A stretch of DNA of 64,000 nucleotides from Amanita rubescens. Taxonomy: Eukaryota; Basidiomycota; Agaricomycetes; Agaricales; Amanitaceae. Position 1 is the stretch's first letter; each line of letters starts with the position of its first letter. The position numbers and the translations under genes are program-made. The stretch is taken from NCBI GenBank assembly GCA_015039365.1, contig WION01000047.1, positions 124,001 to 188,000 of the forward strand, in the 5' to 3' direction. The notes beneath the pieces are model-generated. The model made no database searches. It had not been told where the DNA came from and saw only the letters and a list, made by a program, of their open reading frames with translations. Below are positions 1 through 36,013 of the stretch, one piece after another.

Positions 1-1477
1 GCGAATATTTTCCCCCTTGATCGCAAGGTCGGCCATCACCACTTTATAATTAGGTGCCCCTTCGTCCGTCTTGATATACAACGTCGATCCACGGTTTGTG
101 ATTCTGAGAATACAAATTGGCAGCGATCATGAGGGACGGAAGACTGGGCCTACAAAATACAGTCCGCAGAAAACTCGTTGACGACTCTTTTCCATTGCAA
201 CCCAGATCTGATTTGGTTCCCGTCGATCTCAGCAATCCATAGAAGGTTTGTCTGGCCGAATTAAAAGGCATCATTTGTTATAAACAACAGGCGATATACC
301 TTTCCCGTATCCTTCACGATGTGCATATATAAGTATTTTCCGTCTTCGGAGACTGCCGATACGAATGTCCATTCGGGATGGTCCTCATCATGGAGAATAA
401 GGATATCATCCGCTTTGTTTGCCGCTTTTAGCGCTGGCGAAGGAGAATAAAGGATGTTGCCTTACACTGAGGGGTTCCTACGAAATGGTAATACACCGCT
501 GCATCTCGGTCGGTATGTCTTTGAATTCGATTCATGACATCATCGTCGACGGGAGGAAACCGCTGGAAATCATTATTCATCTTCTTCACAACTGGGAATA
601 AAGTTTACTTGGTAGAAGAAACCCTTGGAATCCTTGGTCCATGCTATAGTAGAAAACTTGACGTATTTGAGCTCATCTGATAGCCGGTGGTCACCTAACC
701 CTGAATCCATAGCTGCTTGTGATAACGGAGAAGCTGTAGAACGAACGAAGATAGTTGAGAACGCATTGCCCTGCGCAATTTATTGATCAAGAATACCGAA
801 AGCAGACAAACGGGGCTACGCACGGATGTGATCATCCGATATGCAAAGTACGTTCCACAGCGGGAGAATTTGCAAGCGGGTGACAGTGCGACAGAACCAT
901 CAGAGGCAAGCAAATTAGGCTTTATTGAGCGTTAGAAGGGTACCTTGAAGTATAACCATCCTTACGTCGAAGAACGGCTCGCCTATGACAGTGTCATCCT
1001 TTGAAAAGTCGGGGAGAGCAGCTTCCTTTGAGCGGTAGAGAACTGTAAACAAAAGTTGTTCATATTGGTTTAGATGAGGTCAGCTACTAGTTTAACTCAC
1101 CCGCTTGGCGTTGAAGTCCGCTATTATAGAACCAGTACCATCGTCCATCATCGACCAGAGTTGGAGGCGAGAACTGGAAATGACTCTGTGAGGTGCTAAC
1201 TTACAGATGGAAATGTGCTAGCCACCTTAGGATAGTCCATACAGGAACGGAGGAGGTCCCCAAGCTTCTGTTTGTCTGGGTATTTGTCAAGGTAGGACTG
1301 CGTAAACAGCCGTTGGGCAGTTACCCACTTCTCCGTTTCATCTGTGTGTTTTTCTAGCCAATGGTACGGGTCCGGAACGCTTACTTGGCCATTGGCTGCG
1401 CTCTCGTAGACGTCGATGTGGTCAGAGCGACGTGTAGGGGGGTAATTTCCGGGAGCCCAGGGAGTGACGGGGGCCAT
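1..1477 (-). CDS. Prolyl oligopeptidase (POPB-like), N-terminal part; gene runs off the left edge
   Basis: Serine peptidase of family S9A. The start is the ATG at 1477, giving MAPVTPWAPGNYPPTRRSDH, the usual N-terminus of mushroom POPs; an in-frame ATG at 1507 is less likely. Exon 1 continues with the VPDPYHWLE box. Further exons, joined by short GT-AG introns, encode FSPPTLVDDGRWYWFYNSG, then STIFVRSTASPLSQAAMDSG, then ILHDEDHPEWTFVSAVSEDG, then LLWIAEIDG, and the reading frame is kept at each junction. About 250 residues are present, all from the N-terminal beta-propeller side; the catalytic Ser/Asp/His lie outside the window. Mushrooms have a housekeeping POPA and, in producers of amatoxin-type peptides, a second enzyme, POPB, which cleaves MSDIN precursors after Pro and macrocyclises them. 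The position beside an MSDIN-like gene, an FMO and a P450 makes POPB the better inference, but the visible part cannot decide between the two. Confidence 0.88.
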
Positions 1478-1809: not shown

Positions 1810-3041
1810 CAGTTGCTTGCCTGTTCGGTTCGTACGGCGCGTCGACTGGGTAGACCGTAGAGATGAATATAATACTGTCAGAAATTATATTGAAACTTCA
1901 CATACATGACTGACTTTCCACACGTACAGGTCGCTGTACACTGACACCATACCCGCCAGCACGAAACTACTACACGGTGAGATTCTCGACGTCTAGTACG
2001 TCATCCTAAACGATAAAATTAATCCCTGTCAACGTTGTTTCTATTGGTGCTCACCCGAACACGTTTTATTTTTCCTATTCGACCCTTCTCTCCTTCTTTT
2101 TTTAGTTTCCCGAGCTTCCTCATGCATCTTACCCTTTGCTTCGTCTGCGCCCATCTGCTCGAGCCTTTATTCGTTTCCAAAGATGTCTCAAGTTACCGGG
2201 ACGCTGGTACCAGCAGTTGACGTTAGCATCAGTCAGTACCAGGAACATTGACATCAACAGGTGCCGTTTCTTAGAACGAAATGATAAGACAGGCCGAAGT
2301 TGAGAGACATGGTAGGGGACGGTTCCCACGGTTTTGGTAATGCAAGCACTTGTCAGTTCAAGTCCTTTTGTAACGTAAAATTCACCTCAGTCTCGTGTGT
2401 ATGAAGACTGAGGTTCATGGAGGGTGTAGATTCCCCAAGAGACGGGGTTTAGGTTTTCTTTGTGCGTCTCAATGAGAACCTCCAAGGCCCAAAGGGGAAA
2501 TGACTATAATTAGACATCACCGTTTTGGCGCCATTCATCGAGACATCAGTGACGCTTGTGGCGGAAAAGTCTTAGTTGTAGACACCAAGTGAATTCATTC
2601 ATACCGTCCCGCATGCGGCACGTCGCATAACTGTCAGACGGCAGGCTGGGCCGGGTGCTTATCATCGATCACGGACCATAGTACGCCATTGTACTCAATT
2701 GTACTCAAGTTCAACAATCTTATGCTGGCTCAAAACATGTTCTGCATTCAATGACGTGGATTTTACAAATTTTTTACAATACACAAGTGAATCAAAAATC
2801 AAAGGAACGTTATGGCTTTGTCTAATGAAATATCCAGTCGTCAGTCTACTTGAAAATGATGATCAAGAAGGGATTATTTCACCACTGATACAGCCTCATC
2901 GATCCAAGGCCCTCCACTGACAAGCGATGGTACATATTCCCTTCTGCCTGCGCCCACTACTGTTTTATCAGTTCACTATTCATTGTGTAGTCATTTACGA
3001 GAGATACCTTTGGTCACCGATGGGCCGACACGGCGGGATAA
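1810..3041. other. Intergenic, no gene recognised
   Basis: Between the divergent upstream region of the POP gene and the 3' end of the MSDIN-like gene. Only short open frames with no family features occur. 2041-2130 is pyrimidine-rich (promoter-like on the plus strand), but no coding exon follows that I can support. Confidence 0.4.
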
Positions 3042-3194
3042 TCAGCAGAGTCTGACGAGGCCGTAGGTAAACATATCAAGCAGTTCAGGAGGTTTGACAT
3101 ACATGGTGTTGTAGGGACCCATGTCCTCAATGGGAGCACTCCCATGGACATCCCAGATTGCGCAGGGAAGGCGAGTTGAGTTGTCGGTGTACAT
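3042..3194 (-). CDS. MSDIN-family-like cyclic peptide precursor, two coding exons
   Basis: Small precursor gene. Coding exon 1 runs 3194-3103 and opens with the decapeptide MYTDNSTRLP. This matches the MSDIN leader in length and in Met1, Asn5, Thr7, Arg8, Leu9 and Pro10, where POPB cuts. The next 11 residues are the putative core: Cys first, Trp fourth, His seventh, Pro last. An acidic follower comes next. A GTATGT donor at 3102 and a CAG acceptor at 3052 define a 51-nt intron; splicing splits one codon and leaves a final exon (3051-3042) of two full codons, ending Leu-Cys-stop. The spliced product is 33 residues, within the usual 33-35, and known MSDIN genes also have an intron near the 3' end of the coding region. 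Unspliced, the frame runs on for 17 codons to the same stop. The gene lies between POP, FMO and P450 genes. The core matches no toxin core I know, so the bioactivity is unknown. Confidence 0.72.
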   Translation of the reverse strand: MYTDNSTRLPCAIWDVHGSAPIEDMGPYNTMYVKPPELLDMFTYGLVRLC

Positions 3195-4221
3195 TTCGAT
3201 AGAAGTCAGAGGTATCTGGGCAGTTGCAATTGCTCGGATGGGGAGCAGACGGTTAAACAGTCGCCCTTTTATGTGATTTCAGTCTTCCCATGATTAAGAA
3301 ACTTATATAATTTTCCATCGAACCGACCCAAAAGGTTTCCGATTCAGTGCCAGAGGTCGCTAAAAATTGCCTGGCTCGAATCTCTACGTTCTGATGAATT
3401 TTCCGCCCGTTTCTAGAACGTGAAGGGTCATGGTATCCTTTATTCATCCAATATATCAACATACTTATCGCTTAGTTTCATTTGTCGGAGTATTCGTGCT
3501 CAGCCGTCTAGGGTTAGACTACTGTCGTTTGACACGTTAAGGCCACCCTCATCGAATCGCAACCGAATAAGCCATGAGTACGAAGCCTTTCTTCGGACTT
3601 AACTGATTGCACCATTCTGGATGTAGCTCTCTGATGAATCAAAATATTCTAAAGTCGAACTGAAAATCCATATTCATAAAGTATTTATGTACTTCGTAAA
3701 GACAATTCTCTCATTTGCTGCCAAGACTCTTACTCGGATCGCTGAGGTGAATATTGTCGTAACCCAAACACATGGGCACGGGAGAGTTCCTAATTCAGAG
3801 AAGCGCATTACGCAAAATCAACATGTCTGTTCGCAAGCGAAATCTTATTCGGACAATAAACAATTTAGCGAACTAGATCCTGCAGGGGCTTTGAACTTGC
3901 TTAGAAGGGCTTGAAATCTCTCGAAATCCTCCCACTCCTATTTCCGTAATAAGGGTCTGTTCGGCATCATTGACGTCATAGCGGTAGTACTGCGATACCG
4001 AAAAATACCGATGTGGTTAGTTACGTTGATTGTACACGCTCCACAAGTGAATAAATATCATGAATGCTGTAAATCAAATGAGTCCATCGCTTGTGATGTG
4101 GGTATAGGATGCATTTTAGTAACCATAATTTCGCAAAGAGGGTGCATCCGATCGTGATCATACGCTCGATTGGCTGGTTTTGTCTTTCTATCCACATTTT
4201 GACAATCAAAAGGTTCGCACG
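3195..4221. other. Intergenic between FMO 3' end and the MSDIN-like gene (upstream of the latter)
   Basis: Holds the presumed promoter and 5' UTR of the minus-strand MSDIN-like gene. A TGCCCAG at 3219-3225 (minus strand) could be a 3' splice site of a leader intron. The open frames at 3253-3462 and 3687-3914 have no recognisable features. Confidence 0.4.
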
Positions 4222-4374: not shown

Positions 4375-6797
4375 TCACCAACCACGACTATACAAGAATT
4401 CATCTATCTTCTTCGTAATTTGTGCTTGATCAACACCAGCAAATACATTGATCCCGTATCTTGCCTGGATCAATAGCGCCATGAAGTTAAGGTCACTGTG
4501 TAAAAGAAATGAGTGGTAGCTGGAAGATGTGATCGAAGTTTTCCTTACCCTGGCTGCCGCGCATTGACCTGCCGAAAGAAACATATGTTAGGTCTGTGGA
4601 AAAGACAGGCTATATTCTAGTACCTGTCGTCCACCATACTTGACAGCTGCATCGTTAAGCCAACCGACAAAGAATCGAATCATATCTATCCATTGAAGCT
4701 GTATCATTGTCTTAACATAGGACGGATGGAAAAGGATCGCACCGTTTGAGTCCTTGAGACCCAGAAACTGGTTGTTCTTCCCATGACCACCTTTCCCCAA
4801 TATACGTTCCTCGTACCATTTCCACAGCTGTGGTGTTGTTGGAATCTTCGCTTGATTTCCCCAAACCTTGGAGAGCGCAATGGAAATATACTCAGAATAT
4901 TGGTAGAGGGGAATCCCCATGTTCACTGGGGGAAGATCAGGATTAAATATCGGCCAAAAAGTTTATGAATGGACTTACTGCCCATAAACCCCAACGTGGG
5001 TTCATCAATGGATAGAATGTCGAGATACAGATTACGAAGGTGCGTTCCGTCGGTTACAATGGGAGAAAGATCAGTATCCTTGGCAATGCGAGAGGAGTTG
5101 TGAAATTGAGGAATGAAGGGGAAAGAATGACGGTAACCAGTTGCGAATAAGATAGAATCAATACCATTGAGAGTCTGGTGTGCCAGATGCAGTCAACATT
5201 TTAAGTCCAAAGCAGGACTGGAGCCTACCGTTCCATTCGCGAACTCGACGCGACTCGTGACAATGCTTGATCCTGGGGGAGAAAAGCACTCGATTTCCGG
5301 AACGATCGTAACATTGCTCGGTAGAAATTTGAGGATAGGATGTCTTGCTGGTTACGATTCGATGAAGATCATACTGACAGAATATCGTACTTACATTTGC
5401 CCCCCTGTGAGAGTCATGTACAATGTAAATAACAGAATCGAAGTGGATTTTGCGGACGAACATACTCTGACAGACTGGTATATGTGACGCGTATACGGAG
5501 CAATATCAATGGCCATCTGTATAGCACTGTCCTAAAAATGAAATCCAAATTTGGCATTGAATTTCATAGTCTTGAAGCCACTCACAGAACCACCAACGAT
5601 AAGCACCGTTTGATTGGCGTAAGGTTGAGGACGCCGATACTGGCGCGAATGAATTACCCTGTCTGGGAACTGATCCGCCCAGGCCTGTAACCCAGGAATG
5701 TCCGGGACGTGGGGCGCATTGAATCTCCCCGTTGCAACAACCACTGCATCGAAATCCTATTGTTCCAGGAAACAGATAAATATCCGGTGGGTGGATCAAA
5801 TGGGAGGAAATACATTCCTCCTTCGTCCACACAGCCGTCGATGTGTTCCTGCCTGTTCGTACCATTTCTTTCACTGTTAGGGTCCAACCTGACCTAACCT
5901 GGCCGTTTTCAGTCGAATTAAAACGTCTCTCAACAAGCTCGACCCGTGTGTTGTAACGAATGCGCGGATTTTCGATGTCGTTGCTGTTGATTCCGTGAAA
6001 TGATGAAAACGCTCGGATATACTGGGCGACGCGATGGTGTGGAATCTCTGGTTCGAGCATCACTGTCAAATGAGAGCGTGGTTATACATGACAAATACAT
6101 ACCCAAAGGTTCACTGGCCGGCCAGGGCAGTTCTGGAAACTGTTCACGAGGTATTAGGGGCAAGCTGCTGAACGATGAGATTGAAAGAACCTTACCTCCT
6201 GATATTGCTTTATATATAAATAAATAAATATTCACCGCGAACGTGACGGGATAGAAATGTGAGTGCACGCACAGGTGGAGTACTCGTCCGTAGAGATTTC
6301 CAAATCGGTTTAGGCGATCGGTGGACTCTCAACGTTTCCTCAGACACCTCTCCCTCGTAATGCTCTTCATACGGCAACGCTACGCCTTCCGGAGGAAGAG
6401 AGGGTACGAAATCACCAACGGAGATGTCTGCATTTGGCATGGGCGTCTTGGTGTGTGCTTCCTCGGTGTAATGCCAGGTCCCGCCAGGTACAGTGTCACG
6501 TTCAAAGAGCCAAACATCAAAACCTGCCTGGGCGAAATCACGATACGCGACGAGTCCACTATATATTAAGAGTACGAGTCAGCAAGAAAAAAGGCGTGAC
6601 AAGGATCGAAACCATTACCTTGGACCTGCGCCGATGATGGCTACTTTATGTATCGGCCACGAGAATTGGTATGAATCGGATTCTAGCGGCAACTGATCAG
6701 GCAATAGCGGTCGTTGCTCGGAAACTGTGACCGGGATTTCGAGGAGAATCACAAACGATAACCAAAGGAAAATGCTGTGGTTGTGAAACTTCATCAT
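4375..6797 (-). CDS. Flavin-containing monooxygenase with signal peptide (FMO1-like)
   Basis: Multi-exon gene for a class B flavin monooxygenase using FAD and NADPH. The start at 6797 gives a hydrophobic N-terminus (FLWLSFVILLEIPVTVS), a signal peptide or anchor that suggests the ER/secretory route. Then come the FAD-binding motif VAIIGAGP, the downstream VPGGTWHY box, the FMO signature region FPDRVIHSRQY, the NADPH-binding motif VLIVGGSVSG, and ILFATGY near the C-terminus. The last exons encode LYLDILSIDEPTLGFMG-type sequence and end at the stop at 4375-4377. All parts are readable through short GT-AG introns, so the gene looks functional. In amatoxin producers an FMO of this kind is clustered with POPB, MSDIN and a P450 and is needed for late modification of the cyclic peptide; a role on the neighbouring precursor is inferred. 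The enzyme could act on another small molecule. Confidence 0.85.
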
Positions 6798-17817: not shown

Positions 17818-20800
17818 TCATCGTTTAGCTTTGCCCTTCGCCGTACCGCTGCCTGCATTCCCCGCATTCGCCGACTTTTTCTTCTTGGCTGTCTGAATAA
17901 GCTTATCGCCGCTAATGCCATCCGCATCCTTCTCTTTTTTCTCATCCTCAGACACGTCTTCCCCATTATCATCGTTCTGCCATATTATGAGCAATAATCT
18001 TGAACAATTCTACACCGGACAAACCTCGTACGCTTCTTCCAGATCAGGTGCGGCAGCTCCAGCAAGCTTCTTGGGTGCTTTCCCCAGGTCCTGAGCCTTG
18101 TGAAAGGCGATTGGATGCTCAGTCGAATTGTATCTATACACCATCAGATGCATGAGCATCGCATCATAACATTCTGCGAGACAATATGCTCACTTCCTCG
18201 TAAATGCTGTCTTGGTTGCGGGGGCAATCTTCTTGAGCACAATGTCATCCTTACGATCGCCGACACCCAACTCAACAATTGTGTCCCAGTCTTCCTTGGA
18301 CAGGTAGTATTCGTCCATTCGCTCGATAACGTCTTGAACGGCACTCTATTGATATCGACGGTAGTCAGTGAAAAAAAAAAACCCAAGTGTAGTCCGCGGA
18401 AACTCACAGATCCTTCTTCCACCAGTGGTTGTACTATATGCGGATAAAGCTCAGGAATGTATGATTGTCGGATCTCCAGCTTGTCTCCCGACACTTTGAG
18501 TCGCATGCGCACTTGGACGTCACCAAGTTGTCGCATCAGCTTGTTCCGCTTCGAATTTTGTCCGAGCCATCTTTGTACGAACTAATTAGCAAAGAACATT
18601 CGTTGGACGAACAACATATACGCACTGAGGGAACGTTAATGGGTTGGCCCCTCCATAGTGAACCCCGGTTCCGTACATACATGATGCCGGTTTAACGGTA
18701 GATAGAACGGCATGTAAGGGCATCAAGCTCCAATGCTGTTCCGGTCTATCAAGCATACTAAGCGCTGAACCGAGCATAAAACCCTTGGAACGTACCCATG
18801 GATTAGCGAATCGACCAGATCACCGTCAGAGATCGAGGAGGCAGCGCGGTCCATCAACTCTAGTTGCTTCAAAATCTTTTCTGGTCCATCCAAGTTTCGA
18901 ACCTGCGCTGGCTGGCTCCGAATGTAGTTTTCCTGTTCGAGCATGGGTGACACAGTACTCAAGTACGGCGCGAGGCGTACCTGGATGAACAACGGTACAA
19001 AGGAATGATCTTGGAAATACAGGTCCATCTTGTCTCCGAGAGATTCCCGAGCTGTTGCTGAGAACAAGTATGGTCCAAGGATCTTCGTTGTAATGTCGAA
19101 AGGGTTCATTACGGTGTACTTCTCGTTCATTTTAGACCTGCAAGCGTCGAGTCGCATCGCACGCCCAGAGTAGAATGTATTCAAAACTCACAGTGCCTTG
19201 CTCTCGTCGAAGTCCATGGCGTCGCTGGATAGCTTCCAGGTTGAAAGCATATTCAAGACTTGCCGTATATCTGACTGAGCGCCGGTGATTAGTTGGTCGA
19301 CAACATTTGCGGGAATCTTCATTTTTTCCCTAAACAAGTCTATCAATACGACTCCATATCTGCAGAAAGTCATTCATTACTTAAACGCTATTGACAGAAT
19401 TCGCGATCGAATTGCGTTCGCAGCAGGCCTATCAAACGTATGATTAGACAATCATTACACAGTCCTGCCCAAAACGCACTTTGAGAATGATAAGTTGAAT
19501 GTTGTCGATAACAATGGTCTCAGCTTGGTCGATTGCTTGTCATTGGCAATACAGATAATTGGAACCTGATGCAACGGTGAGTATAAAATGAACCAATGGA
19601 TATCACAGTCACGACCTTTGACTTCTTGATAAGGGCATTTAAAGCACCAACGCCTCCACGATCACCCGCGGACATCCCATCAACTTCATCCATGATAATG
19701 CACGACTTGTCAGTGATGGTTACCCCTAGTGCATTCGTGGCCTACATTAACTTGTCAAGGCATGGTGCGACGGTCAAACACAGAAAATTACCTTCTCGCC
19801 CCGAAGGAACCCATCGAGCGATGTATTGTTGATATTCATTCCATTCTGCAATACAGTCACCCCCGTCCAAAATCGCGACCGCGCAAAAAAGTACGAACCT
19901 CGACAAGTTTTTTGCTCCTAGCATCACTAGCGTTCAGTTCGATAGGCGTAAAACCTTCGAGCTTGGCACAGAGATGGGCGCTAGTCGTCTTTCCAACGCC
20001 AGGCGGCCCTGTGATAAGCACGGCGCGGAACATATTCGCTCCGTTCTTACCAGGTTTCTTAAAGCCGCACTTGAGGCTCTGAGGCCTGTCTACAGGTTGA
20101 GAAACATGCAAGAAGACCGAGATGATAAAATGACCAATCGTGCAACCACTGTTGGAGTTTCTCGATTTGAGACTTGTTTCCGCACACTTCTTTCAGTGAT
20201 TGAGGAGCATATCGGGTTGTCCAAAGCTGAGAGGAAAGCGTATTGGACTTTGCACTATGCAATTCGTCACCATGTTGCTCTGGTTCACCATCCGAATAGG
20301 GCTTACCCAGCGGTGCTCGAACCTTCTTGTTTATCCTCTTTCTTTGCCTGAGTCTTTTCTCTTTTCTCCATATCTTTCGCGGCTTGGCGTATAGCCTCTT
20401 CCTCCTTCTCTATCTTCTTCCTCGTCTTCTCGTCTAATTTACCAGTTTTTCTGGTGGCTATGAGGTTTAAAAATTCGTCTTCACTGAGTGTCTTGAGACC
20501 ATGTTTCTTGATAGCAGCAAGTTTTGCGGGCCCAGCATTGTCACCCAATACGACAAAACTTGTCTTACTTGATGGCTGAAGCGTTACACGTCTAATCTAA
20601 CGCATTAGTGTTGAATAAGTCAAGGAAACAATAGACTCACGCGCCATAGCGCTTGGCGATATCAACGGCTTCATCTCGGGAGAAGCTACTCAACTCCCCG
20701 GTGAAAACAAACGCCAATCCGGCTAAACAATTTGGTTCTCCTTCTGGAACGGCTTTCGATCCGTGAGCAGGTGGGGGCATCATTTTGGCGGCCTTCATCG

Positions 20801-33164: not shown

Positions 33165-36013
33165 TTATATATCCATCTCCCACACCATAGAGTTAGTATT
33201 CGCAGTACTACCAAACTCCATATGTTTCCGTATACACGCGCCAATCTTTCTGTTCGGCTCTGGGGGTCCCTCGAACGTAACTAGTTCCTCAAGTATATGC
33301 GAGAAATCTTGGTTTTTCAAGAACTTGAAAGTGTCGGAAGTGAGTCCGGCTGCGTAGATGCGCAAACATTGAGGTTTATCCGGAACAAGTGGAGACGTCC
33401 AACCAGGAGTGATTGTGGCAGTAACTTTTGATGTATCCAGGCCATAATCCACTAAAATGGCGATCCGCGGGAGATCTGAAGAATAACCAATAGTGTGGTG
33501 TTCCAGCTGGATACCGCTCAAGTCACCATTGTTGGAATGCGCTGTGAGCTTCACGGATATGCCGCATAGTGAAAATTCCTGACGAATGCGAAAGAATATT
33601 GGTATCGCGGCATCTATCATATGCTGCCCGTGGCAACACTGGATCGCACTTGTCCTCTGCCACAATCGTCGGATCCATTCTTGAACACTACGTATGGACG
33701 TTGTCAATTTCAGTAAAAGAATGGCAAAGATAAACTCACCTCATTCCTTCTCTTTTCCCAATATCATCCTTCATTGACACCCAATGCGAAAAATTGATAT
33801 ATGCATCGGCAAATAGTGCTTTTGCATTAGCTTCAGTCTCGCCCCAAAACGACGTCCCAAACAGGTATTGAAGGTAACCAATGAGAGGAACCATCTTACA
33901 ATCGAAGAGTTCGGATTCCGGGGTAAGTAATGGCACCGGAAAGTCCTGGACTGATTGTCGAATATAGAGATCCTTGCCAAGTAGGAAAATCAACCGGTTT
34001 GCCAATTCTCCAGTTTTTCCAACTTCAATAAGTCCTGCTTTTACCTTTTCATTTAGCGCCACGAGTATATCCTTTCGAGCCTTGGGTGATTGGTGCAAGA
34101 GTTGTGCCGCAACGCATGACAGGAGTGGTTCCGAAGGATACGTAGTAAAACTCCACGTCCGCTCTTCAGTTGTTGCAAGGCACACACGTCCGTGGCTGGC
34201 AATCGCATTTTCAATAAGCGAGATTGCTTCTTTGTGACCAAAGTAGATGTTGAGACCGAATCGTTGCGCAAGTACTGCTAATTGGTCTCCGACATTTGGT
34301 TTGTTTTCCTCAATCCCAGGGGCAAGTTTCAGCCGTGCCAATAACTCCAAGCTTCCAACATCTCCTATTGACGTCCATCTGTCAGATAAATAAGTAAAGA
34401 ACTAGGATGAAATAGCCAATTTCGCACAGTGGACGGCCAAAACCTCTTATATATTTCAACTTGGCATTTTTATCAGCCGGTATTTCATTGGAGGGTGTTG
34501 CCATTTGATCCCATCCTAATTCGGTATAGGGAGGAAATAATAATCGCCCAATATTGACTCTGGCCGAGTTGTCTGATGTGAAGATTAGCACAAGAGAATG
34601 AAATATGGAGGGAGTTCTTAACATTTAGGTTGTGGTGTTGCAAAATCGGCAACTTTTGATGTTGTCGAGGCAAATACAACCCAACATCTAGCCGATCTAG
34701 TGGGAGCGGAATAGTCTGCTATTGCTCTGCAAAAAATGATTGATGGCCTCCAATTACCCGGCGATTGTGTCAGGGTCAGTTCATGGGCTTCGTCTACCGC
34801 AATTACCAAAAAAGGCCCATGCGGCTTTTTCCTTTCCGCAAGCATCTTGTACAATGAAGCATATGCTTTCCACATCGCCGTTACCCCATTAATATCACTT
34901 ATTTGTGGGTATATCTGGAGGGAATGATAAGTTAGATGTTTTGATCGTGGGTGAAGGCTCACATTGTCATATTCTTTCTGTACATCGCAGAAGAAAAAAT
35001 GCCGCGTCGCGACGCAAATGGGGTTAACTAATTCAGTCATGCCAGCGTTCCATTCTTTAATGAAATTTTCCCTGCTGCTTGCACTCAGACGCTGTTCAAG
35101 ACACTTGAAAATAGCAATAAAAAACGCATGACATTTGCGGGTGTAAGTACCCTCATTGGTGAAGTTTCTTGTTAGAATCTCTGCAGGAAATGCATCTGGA
35201 GGAGGAAATGCGTGCTTGTCTCCAGGATCACGTAAATTCATGTAAAGGACTATGACATCATTTTTACGAAGCTAAATACAATGCTAAGCTATGAACAATG
35301 CTAGAATGAGAGGACACTCACCTCACACAGCAAACGTGATTTCCCCGTCCCCGAGCTCTGAACAATGCTGCAGAATTTTCCGTAATAATTGGCTTCTCCG
35401 TATTTTTTTTCATTGTCCCTCAGGTATTCAAGGAAGCCGCGAACAGCCATGCCGCGATAGTCCTGGTCGAATGCTGTAACTATATCTTCCGAGAGTTGCT
35501 CGGATCCTGTTGCAATCCCCATAAATTTGGTCCAATTTAACTGCAACAACTCACGATTCATCTCAGGTGGTTGCGGGTATTGACTTGGTCCTTTCCTACG
35601 TTGTAAGATTTCTAGGTAATTTAATGTAAATTGATGAAGATCGGATGACGGGTAGATACCTCACCCCGGATCTTTCTGAATGACCCAGATTCCATTGCCT
35701 CTGGGACATGTTTTTCAAGATCGCGGTTTTCGCGGACAAGGAGAAGAGCATCGTCCATTTTAATCGGAGGAAGGGTGCCATTTGAGACGTTAGATGTGAG
35801 AAAGATGACATTCGCTGTAAAGTTCGACCAGTCGTTCTTGGGATAATTTTCAAGTATTTGAAGGATTTGACGGTCAAAATCCTTGTATTGCAGATCTGTC
35901 AAGCCATCGCGGATCGTTGCCAGGGACTGCCCTGTTGGATCAGCGATCTCTCGCTTCTGTCGGATTGCAGGAGGTGCACTGTGACTAAGGGGCGCAGTGG
36001 GACGTTTAGCCAT
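33165..36013 (-). CDS. P-loop NTPase-REase (Crinkler/CR-like) protein, gene 1
   Basis: Multi-exon gene. Starting MAKRPTAPLSHSAPPAIRQK at 36013, it has an N-terminal helical domain, then YGKFCSIVQSSGTGKSRLL with the Walker A GTGKS, a middle region, FLVIAVDEAHEL (Walker B, DEAH), and a C-terminal nuclease-like part with MIDAAIPIFF and GIQLEHHT. The corresponding motif in gene 2 (47814-50685) is ILIQVKND, so the Lys of the PD-(D/E)XK motif is Glu here, which predicts loss of cleavage. NTPase plus REase modules of this kind are the core of eukaryotic CR (Crinkler) effectors and their relatives; in mushrooms the role is unknown, possibly conflict or self-recognition. The stop is at 33165-33167. 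A few splice junctions near 34380-34620 are inferred. Confidence 0.68.

Follow-up and report, generated by a model that had tools for sequence, protein, structure and literature searches.

Does a short open reading frame (ORF) lying beside a prolyl oligopeptidase (POP) gene in Amanita rubescens encode a precursor of the MSDIN family of cyclic peptides? MSDIN genes are found in few genera, and their origin is debated between horizontal transfer and old inheritance followed by loss (PMC6408872, PMC10356791). The window, that is, the whole stretch of 64,000 nucleotides analysed here, corresponds to C407:124001-188000 in an assembly of 75.7 Mb and 786 contigs. We consider it very probable that this locus holds an MSDIN-like cyclic-peptide (RiPP) precursor together with its cluster, for which we infer splicing, cleavage, cyclisation and tailoring; the precursor seems to represent an unusual branch within the MSDIN-like peptide family. 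This reading, the precursor part of which was already proposed in an earlier note, is favoured because the ORF and its MSDIN-like architecture are intact in both haplotypes, relatives combine conserved flanks with variable Pro-ended cores, the neighbouring POPB-like POP is nearest to GmPOPB, the FMO and P450 neighbours match their Pfam families, and a candidate intron lies at the expected place. Counted against it as caveats are a mismatch with the curated family model, a short follower, two changed POP sites (Gln at Arg663, no Trp695), an open intron and a leader match at chance level.

The candidate gene is an uninterrupted ORF of 50 codons (153 nt) on the minus strand (window 3194-3042), the parts of which are collected with the neighbouring genes in the table. 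Reading of the sequence bore out the coordinates and frame of the earlier note, its 51-nt segment (3102-3052, minus) and the 33-residue product expected from splicing. The predicted follower has 12 residues if the segment is spliced and 29 if it is not, and ends in frame with Leu-Cys both ways. Contig C35 is the apparent other haplotype of C407 (99.2% identity over 18 kb; around the gene, 3026 out of 3030 bases), and the ORF is free of differences between the two. Peptide, pattern and DNA searches of the genome found no third intact copy, and Rfam gave no match above gathering scores in window 2600-3500.

Features of the precursor locus (window positions)
Feature	Position	Strand	Remarks
POPB-like prolyl oligopeptidase, N-terminal exons	1..1477	-	gene runs on upstream of the window; alignment to C16 POP ends near C407:122,346
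Conserved 3' flank, probable 3' UTR	2879..3041	-	from comparison with C16 paralogue A
Exon 2: remainder of fourth-last codon, then Leu, Cys, stop	3042..3051	-	aligns with Leu-Ser-stop of C16 paralogues
Candidate intron, 51 nt, GTATGT...CAG, branch-like YTNAY at 3071-3067	3052..3102	-	frame open if retained
Exon 1 share of follower, 9 codons + 2 nt	3103..3131	-	
Core, 11 codons, Pro-ended, with Cys1 and Trp4	3132..3164	-	
Leader, 10 codons, MYTDNSTRLP	3165..3194	-	terminal Pro is the expected first cleavage site
TATA-like CATAAAAGG, 5' of start codon	3265..3273	-	same word 5' of both C16 paralogues; read from the sequence alone
FMO-like flavin monooxygenase gene	4375..6797	-	PF00743 and PF13738 above cut-offs in one piece; exons inferred
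Cytochrome P450 gene	7148..9355	+	PF00067; exons inferred

The agreement of the leader with MSDIN at M1, N5, T7, R8, L9 and P10, claimed from the first inspection, is borne out; PMC7318481 gives frequencies for M1, N5, R8, L9 and P10 and prints leaders ending in NSTRLP for known MSDIN genes of Amanita, Galerina and Lepiota. The gene thus has the 10-residue leader with M1, N5, R8, L9 and P10 and the variable, Pro-ended core of 6-11 residues by which MSDIN members are recognised; undecapeptide cores are rare, with two in the PMC7318481 list. The follower departs from the family in length: MSDIN followers usually count about 17 residues, 14 and 15 being also listed (PMC5159998, PMC7318481), and here the Leu-Cys end is present in a follower of 12 or 29. 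The curated NCBI amanitin model TIGR04309 did not match the gene, and its sole weak match in the genome (E 1.46) lies elsewhere. Because of this mismatch and of the follower length, we regard the gene as a variant rather than a plain MSDIN member. In the main texts of the literature, supplements aside, MYTDN matched only a paper on tobacco calreticulin by its title, MNDINSTR was absent, and NSTRLP occurred in MSDIN papers as known leaders and otherwise in papers on other subjects by their titles. The gene may already be listed in paper supplements.

The strongest argument against chance comes from six relatives (P0001-P0006) in a public genome and metagenome protein database. With the 50-codon ORF as query, successive searches returned 4, 5 and 6 proteins, the last having scored 157 candidates; E-values when first found were 1.2e-24, 9.5e-23, 6.9e-18, 2.3e-7, 1.9e-20 and 5.9e-15. 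Across the seven aligned sequences S6, T7, R8, P10 and P21 are invariant, and M1, N5 and L9 are each kept in six; the P0003 ORF begins two residues earlier, P0002 is an 84-residue ORF extended upstream, and P0006 is the single exception at the final Cys, with Ala. These seven sequences contain five different cores of 9-11 residues, all Pro-ended if cut at the aligned Pro21. Such a variable Pro-ended core between conserved flanks is the pattern that an MSDIN-like precursor should leave in an alignment. No relative was found in the viral and prokaryote contigs scanned.

The neighbouring POP gene starts 1.56 kb from the precursor stop, and five of its pieces have GmPOPB of Galerina marginata (5N4B-5N4F) as best PDB match (E 8.3e-29, 6.8e-11, 5.6e-18, 4.2e-4 and 1.4e-49). 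The same pieces match the fungal POP OphP (7ZAZ, 7ZB0), which we take to be the POP of a fungal RiPP pathway, far more weakly (2.9e-18 vs 1.4e-49 for one exon). The catalytic Ser577, Asp661 and His698 appear conserved, judging from the alignments and from GmPOPB mutant chains that scored lower or dropped out. The window POP differs from GmPOPB by a Gln at Arg663 (L009:7982-8140 = C407:122481-122639), a position at which a second POPB-like protein, encoded on contig C16, keeps Arg; in the alignment, the Trp695 insertion of GmPOPB is absent from both. Activity of GmPOPB fell when R663 was mutated or W695 deleted; of the mutants tested, R663Q kept the most cyclic product (PMC5648786). Upstream of the POP gene, two tandem TWDLP...NGRYD repeats (L009:6910-7568) gave no Pfam match.

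Over the compared pieces (287-288 residues), identities are 72.2% for window-C16, 69.1% for GmPOPB-C16 and 63.2% for GmPOPB-window, which makes the window POP a diverged sister of the C16 enzyme. A third POP, on contig C112, shares 62.0% with GmPOPB, 61.0% with C16 and 57.5% with the window POP; GmPOPB is therefore almost equally near the C112 and window enzymes in these pairwise identities, which include no reference POPA. We call the C112 POP POPA-like for one reason only, an extra intron suggested by the alignment within the exon for GmPOPB 380-503. From these comparisons the window POP likely belongs with POPB. Four of its pieces, compared with C16, have dN of 0.10-0.19 and dS of 0.87-1.53, and are under purifying selection.

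On the other side of the precursor lie the FMO-like and P450 genes. The latter shows by eye what we take to be the ExxR and haem-Cys motifs. Farther genes, between window positions 18147 and 41422, include RFC1, a BAG domain gene, a fungal kinase and a Lon protease. Repeated long ORFs, alike by eye, are found in window 33168-35271 and L009:2089-4177 (the LRKxDVIVLYMNLR family and neighbours); three pieces that were tested had no Pfam match.

The cluster on C16 combines the second POPB-like gene (70.9% DNA identity to the window POP over 3.2 kb) with two P450-like genes resembling that of the window and a pair of almost identical precursor-like genes, A and B. POP, A and P450 are arranged on C16 as their counterparts are in the window, strands included. 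A tblastn search with window pieces found no FMO match in 39.6 kb of C16. Both paralogues are devoid of TRLP and of the core prolines, and may be relics or changed genes. As a separate observation, C16:27340-41000 (L025, L023, L024) forms an inverted duplication with MFS-like ORFs, a 113-codon ORF and precursor-like genes on both arms; the MFS-like ORF of the one arm tested scored 31.5 bits with PF07690, below the cut-off of 33.4.

Whether the 51-nt segment is spliced out or kept decides what the follower would be. MSDIN transcripts carry an intron in the fourth-last codon (PMC5159998), of 52-58 nt in the family, and the candidate lies at that place. In 12 of 20,000 codon shuffles the fourth-last codon was interrupted by a GTRNGT...YAG intron measuring 45-75 nt, making this geometry unlikely by chance. 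Both C16 paralogues keep the donor, the branch-like CTTAC, the acceptor and the place in a segment of 65 nt, which is not a multiple of 3, and their splicing would give a Leu-Ser-stop end aligned with the Leu-Cys-stop of the window gene. Identical bases between the window and A number 46/75 in the 5' flank (z 2.4), 42/66 in exon 1 (z 3.8), 33/51 in the intron (z 3.0) and 116/158 in exon 2 with the 3' flank (z 13.6); the intron is therefore no more diverged than exon 1. Exon 2 and the 3' flank (window 2879-3041, C16:40430-40593) are 73% identical, though dS of the POP pieces is near 1.

The main rival reading is that the segment stays as an exonised or retained intron, yielding a 50-residue precursor with a 29-residue follower that would still be MSDIN-like and POP-processed. 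It draws on the segment being open, with a similar translation, in all seven sequences, the more distant relatives included, and on P0004, in which 2 of 17 segment residues differ (one inserted codon uncounted) vs 9 of 19 in leader and follower. Open frames were, however, favoured among relatives because the 50-codon ORF was the query. A lenient neutral simulation, with splice sites fixed and inserted codons uncounted, gave P 0.018 for P0004, which speaks for retention, against 0.65, 0.98, 0.96, 0.18 and 0.83 for P0001, P0002, P0003, P0005 and P0006, all of which fit neutral drift; its divergence is a lower bound, which tilts it toward an intron. This simulation and the comparison with A weaken the protein-like segment as evidence against splicing. 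With the paralogues keeping the splice sites at 65 nt and the place matching the MSDIN intron, this rival is doubtful. We find it probable that the segment is spliced; that it is retained, or that both forms are made, is a lesser possibility. The two-exon structure of the earlier note is likely rather than proven, since the segment is open and protein-like in 7/7 sequences.

With the 51-nt intron spliced out, the precursor would consist of 10 leader residues, 11 core residues and 12 follower residues. If it works as GmPOPB does (PMC5648786, PMC5159998), the POPB-like enzyme would first cleave behind Pro10 and, by transpeptidation at Pro21, release a head-to-tail cyclic 11-mer, with a calculated [M+H]+ of 1137.5146, or of 1135.4989 once two H are lost. 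The FMO and P450 could subsequently oxidise this product and might even, as a guess, link Cys1 with Trp4. An intron with double duty, whose spliced 12-residue and retained 29-residue followers would switch the recognition tail for a co-evolved POPB paralogue and give bicyclic peptides with the Cys1/Trp4 order reversed, seems to us unlikely.

More improbable still is that the gene is a decaying MSDIN-like relic, no longer processed. For this reading speak the C16 paralogues, with their missing TRLP and core prolines, and the window POP, which has its Arg663 site changed and is farther from GmPOPB than the C16 enzyme is. Against decay, the two haplotypes alike preserve the leader, the end and both expected cleavage prolines, which are conserved among relatives too, and four pieces of the window POP are under purifying selection.

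The leader pattern bears on the last alternative. Genome-wide, M-x3-N-x-T-R/S-L/F-P occurs at two places in 75.7 Mb, the gene and its allele, and the reversed pattern at three in the same genome; the leader match by itself is therefore near chance level. The earlier note had named such a result as grounds for doubt; this doubt applies to the leader pattern taken alone and not to the whole locus, which stands above chance by its six relatives, POPB-like neighbour, paralogous cluster and intron place. The leader patterns run on the genome (10 residues with L/F, 9 residues with L/F, 10 residues with I/V/M) gave, besides gene and allele, three places for the 9-residue form and one for I/V/M, all rejected. 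Two of the three (C1, C565) are near-identical copies of one stretch, which by eye we presume to overlap another coding frame, and the remaining one matches through Ser-Phe. On C331, the I/V/M place runs in frame and unspliced for 24 codons before a stop, and so read is devoid of an MSDIN-like end. A chance ORF with a TRLP-like start, to which the chance-level leader pattern would point, is scarcely conceivable given the conserved relatives with variable cores, the cluster context and the paralogous cluster.

A branch with its own follower, an adjacent POPB-like gene and a second, altered cluster is new material on the origin of MSDIN genes, and the locus offers a natural POP/precursor pair with a different recognition tail. 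With the MSDIN genes of Amanita, Galerina and Lepiota, the MSDIN-like precursor described here shares a 10-residue leader (9 in Lepiota) with an NSTRLP end known from among them, a variable Pro-ended core, the usual Leu-Cys end, the fourth-last-codon intron as a candidate and a POP partner (PMC5159998, PMC7318481). It is unlike them in a follower sequence that differs from the usual 17-residue ones and in an 11-residue core with Cys before Trp; Cys1 and Trp4 are three apart, and the known Trp-Cys bridge has the two residues the other way round. The genes associated with amanitin are MSDIN, POPB, FMO1 and P450-29 (PMC12811753), and genes of the FMO and P450 kinds, identified from Pfam, are also present at this locus. 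A parallel is the single MSDIN of Clavaria fumosa, like this one a lone divergent member in a POPB-holding genome, which differs by a 9-residue core, a 17-residue follower and a leader ending in TRVP (PMC10356791).
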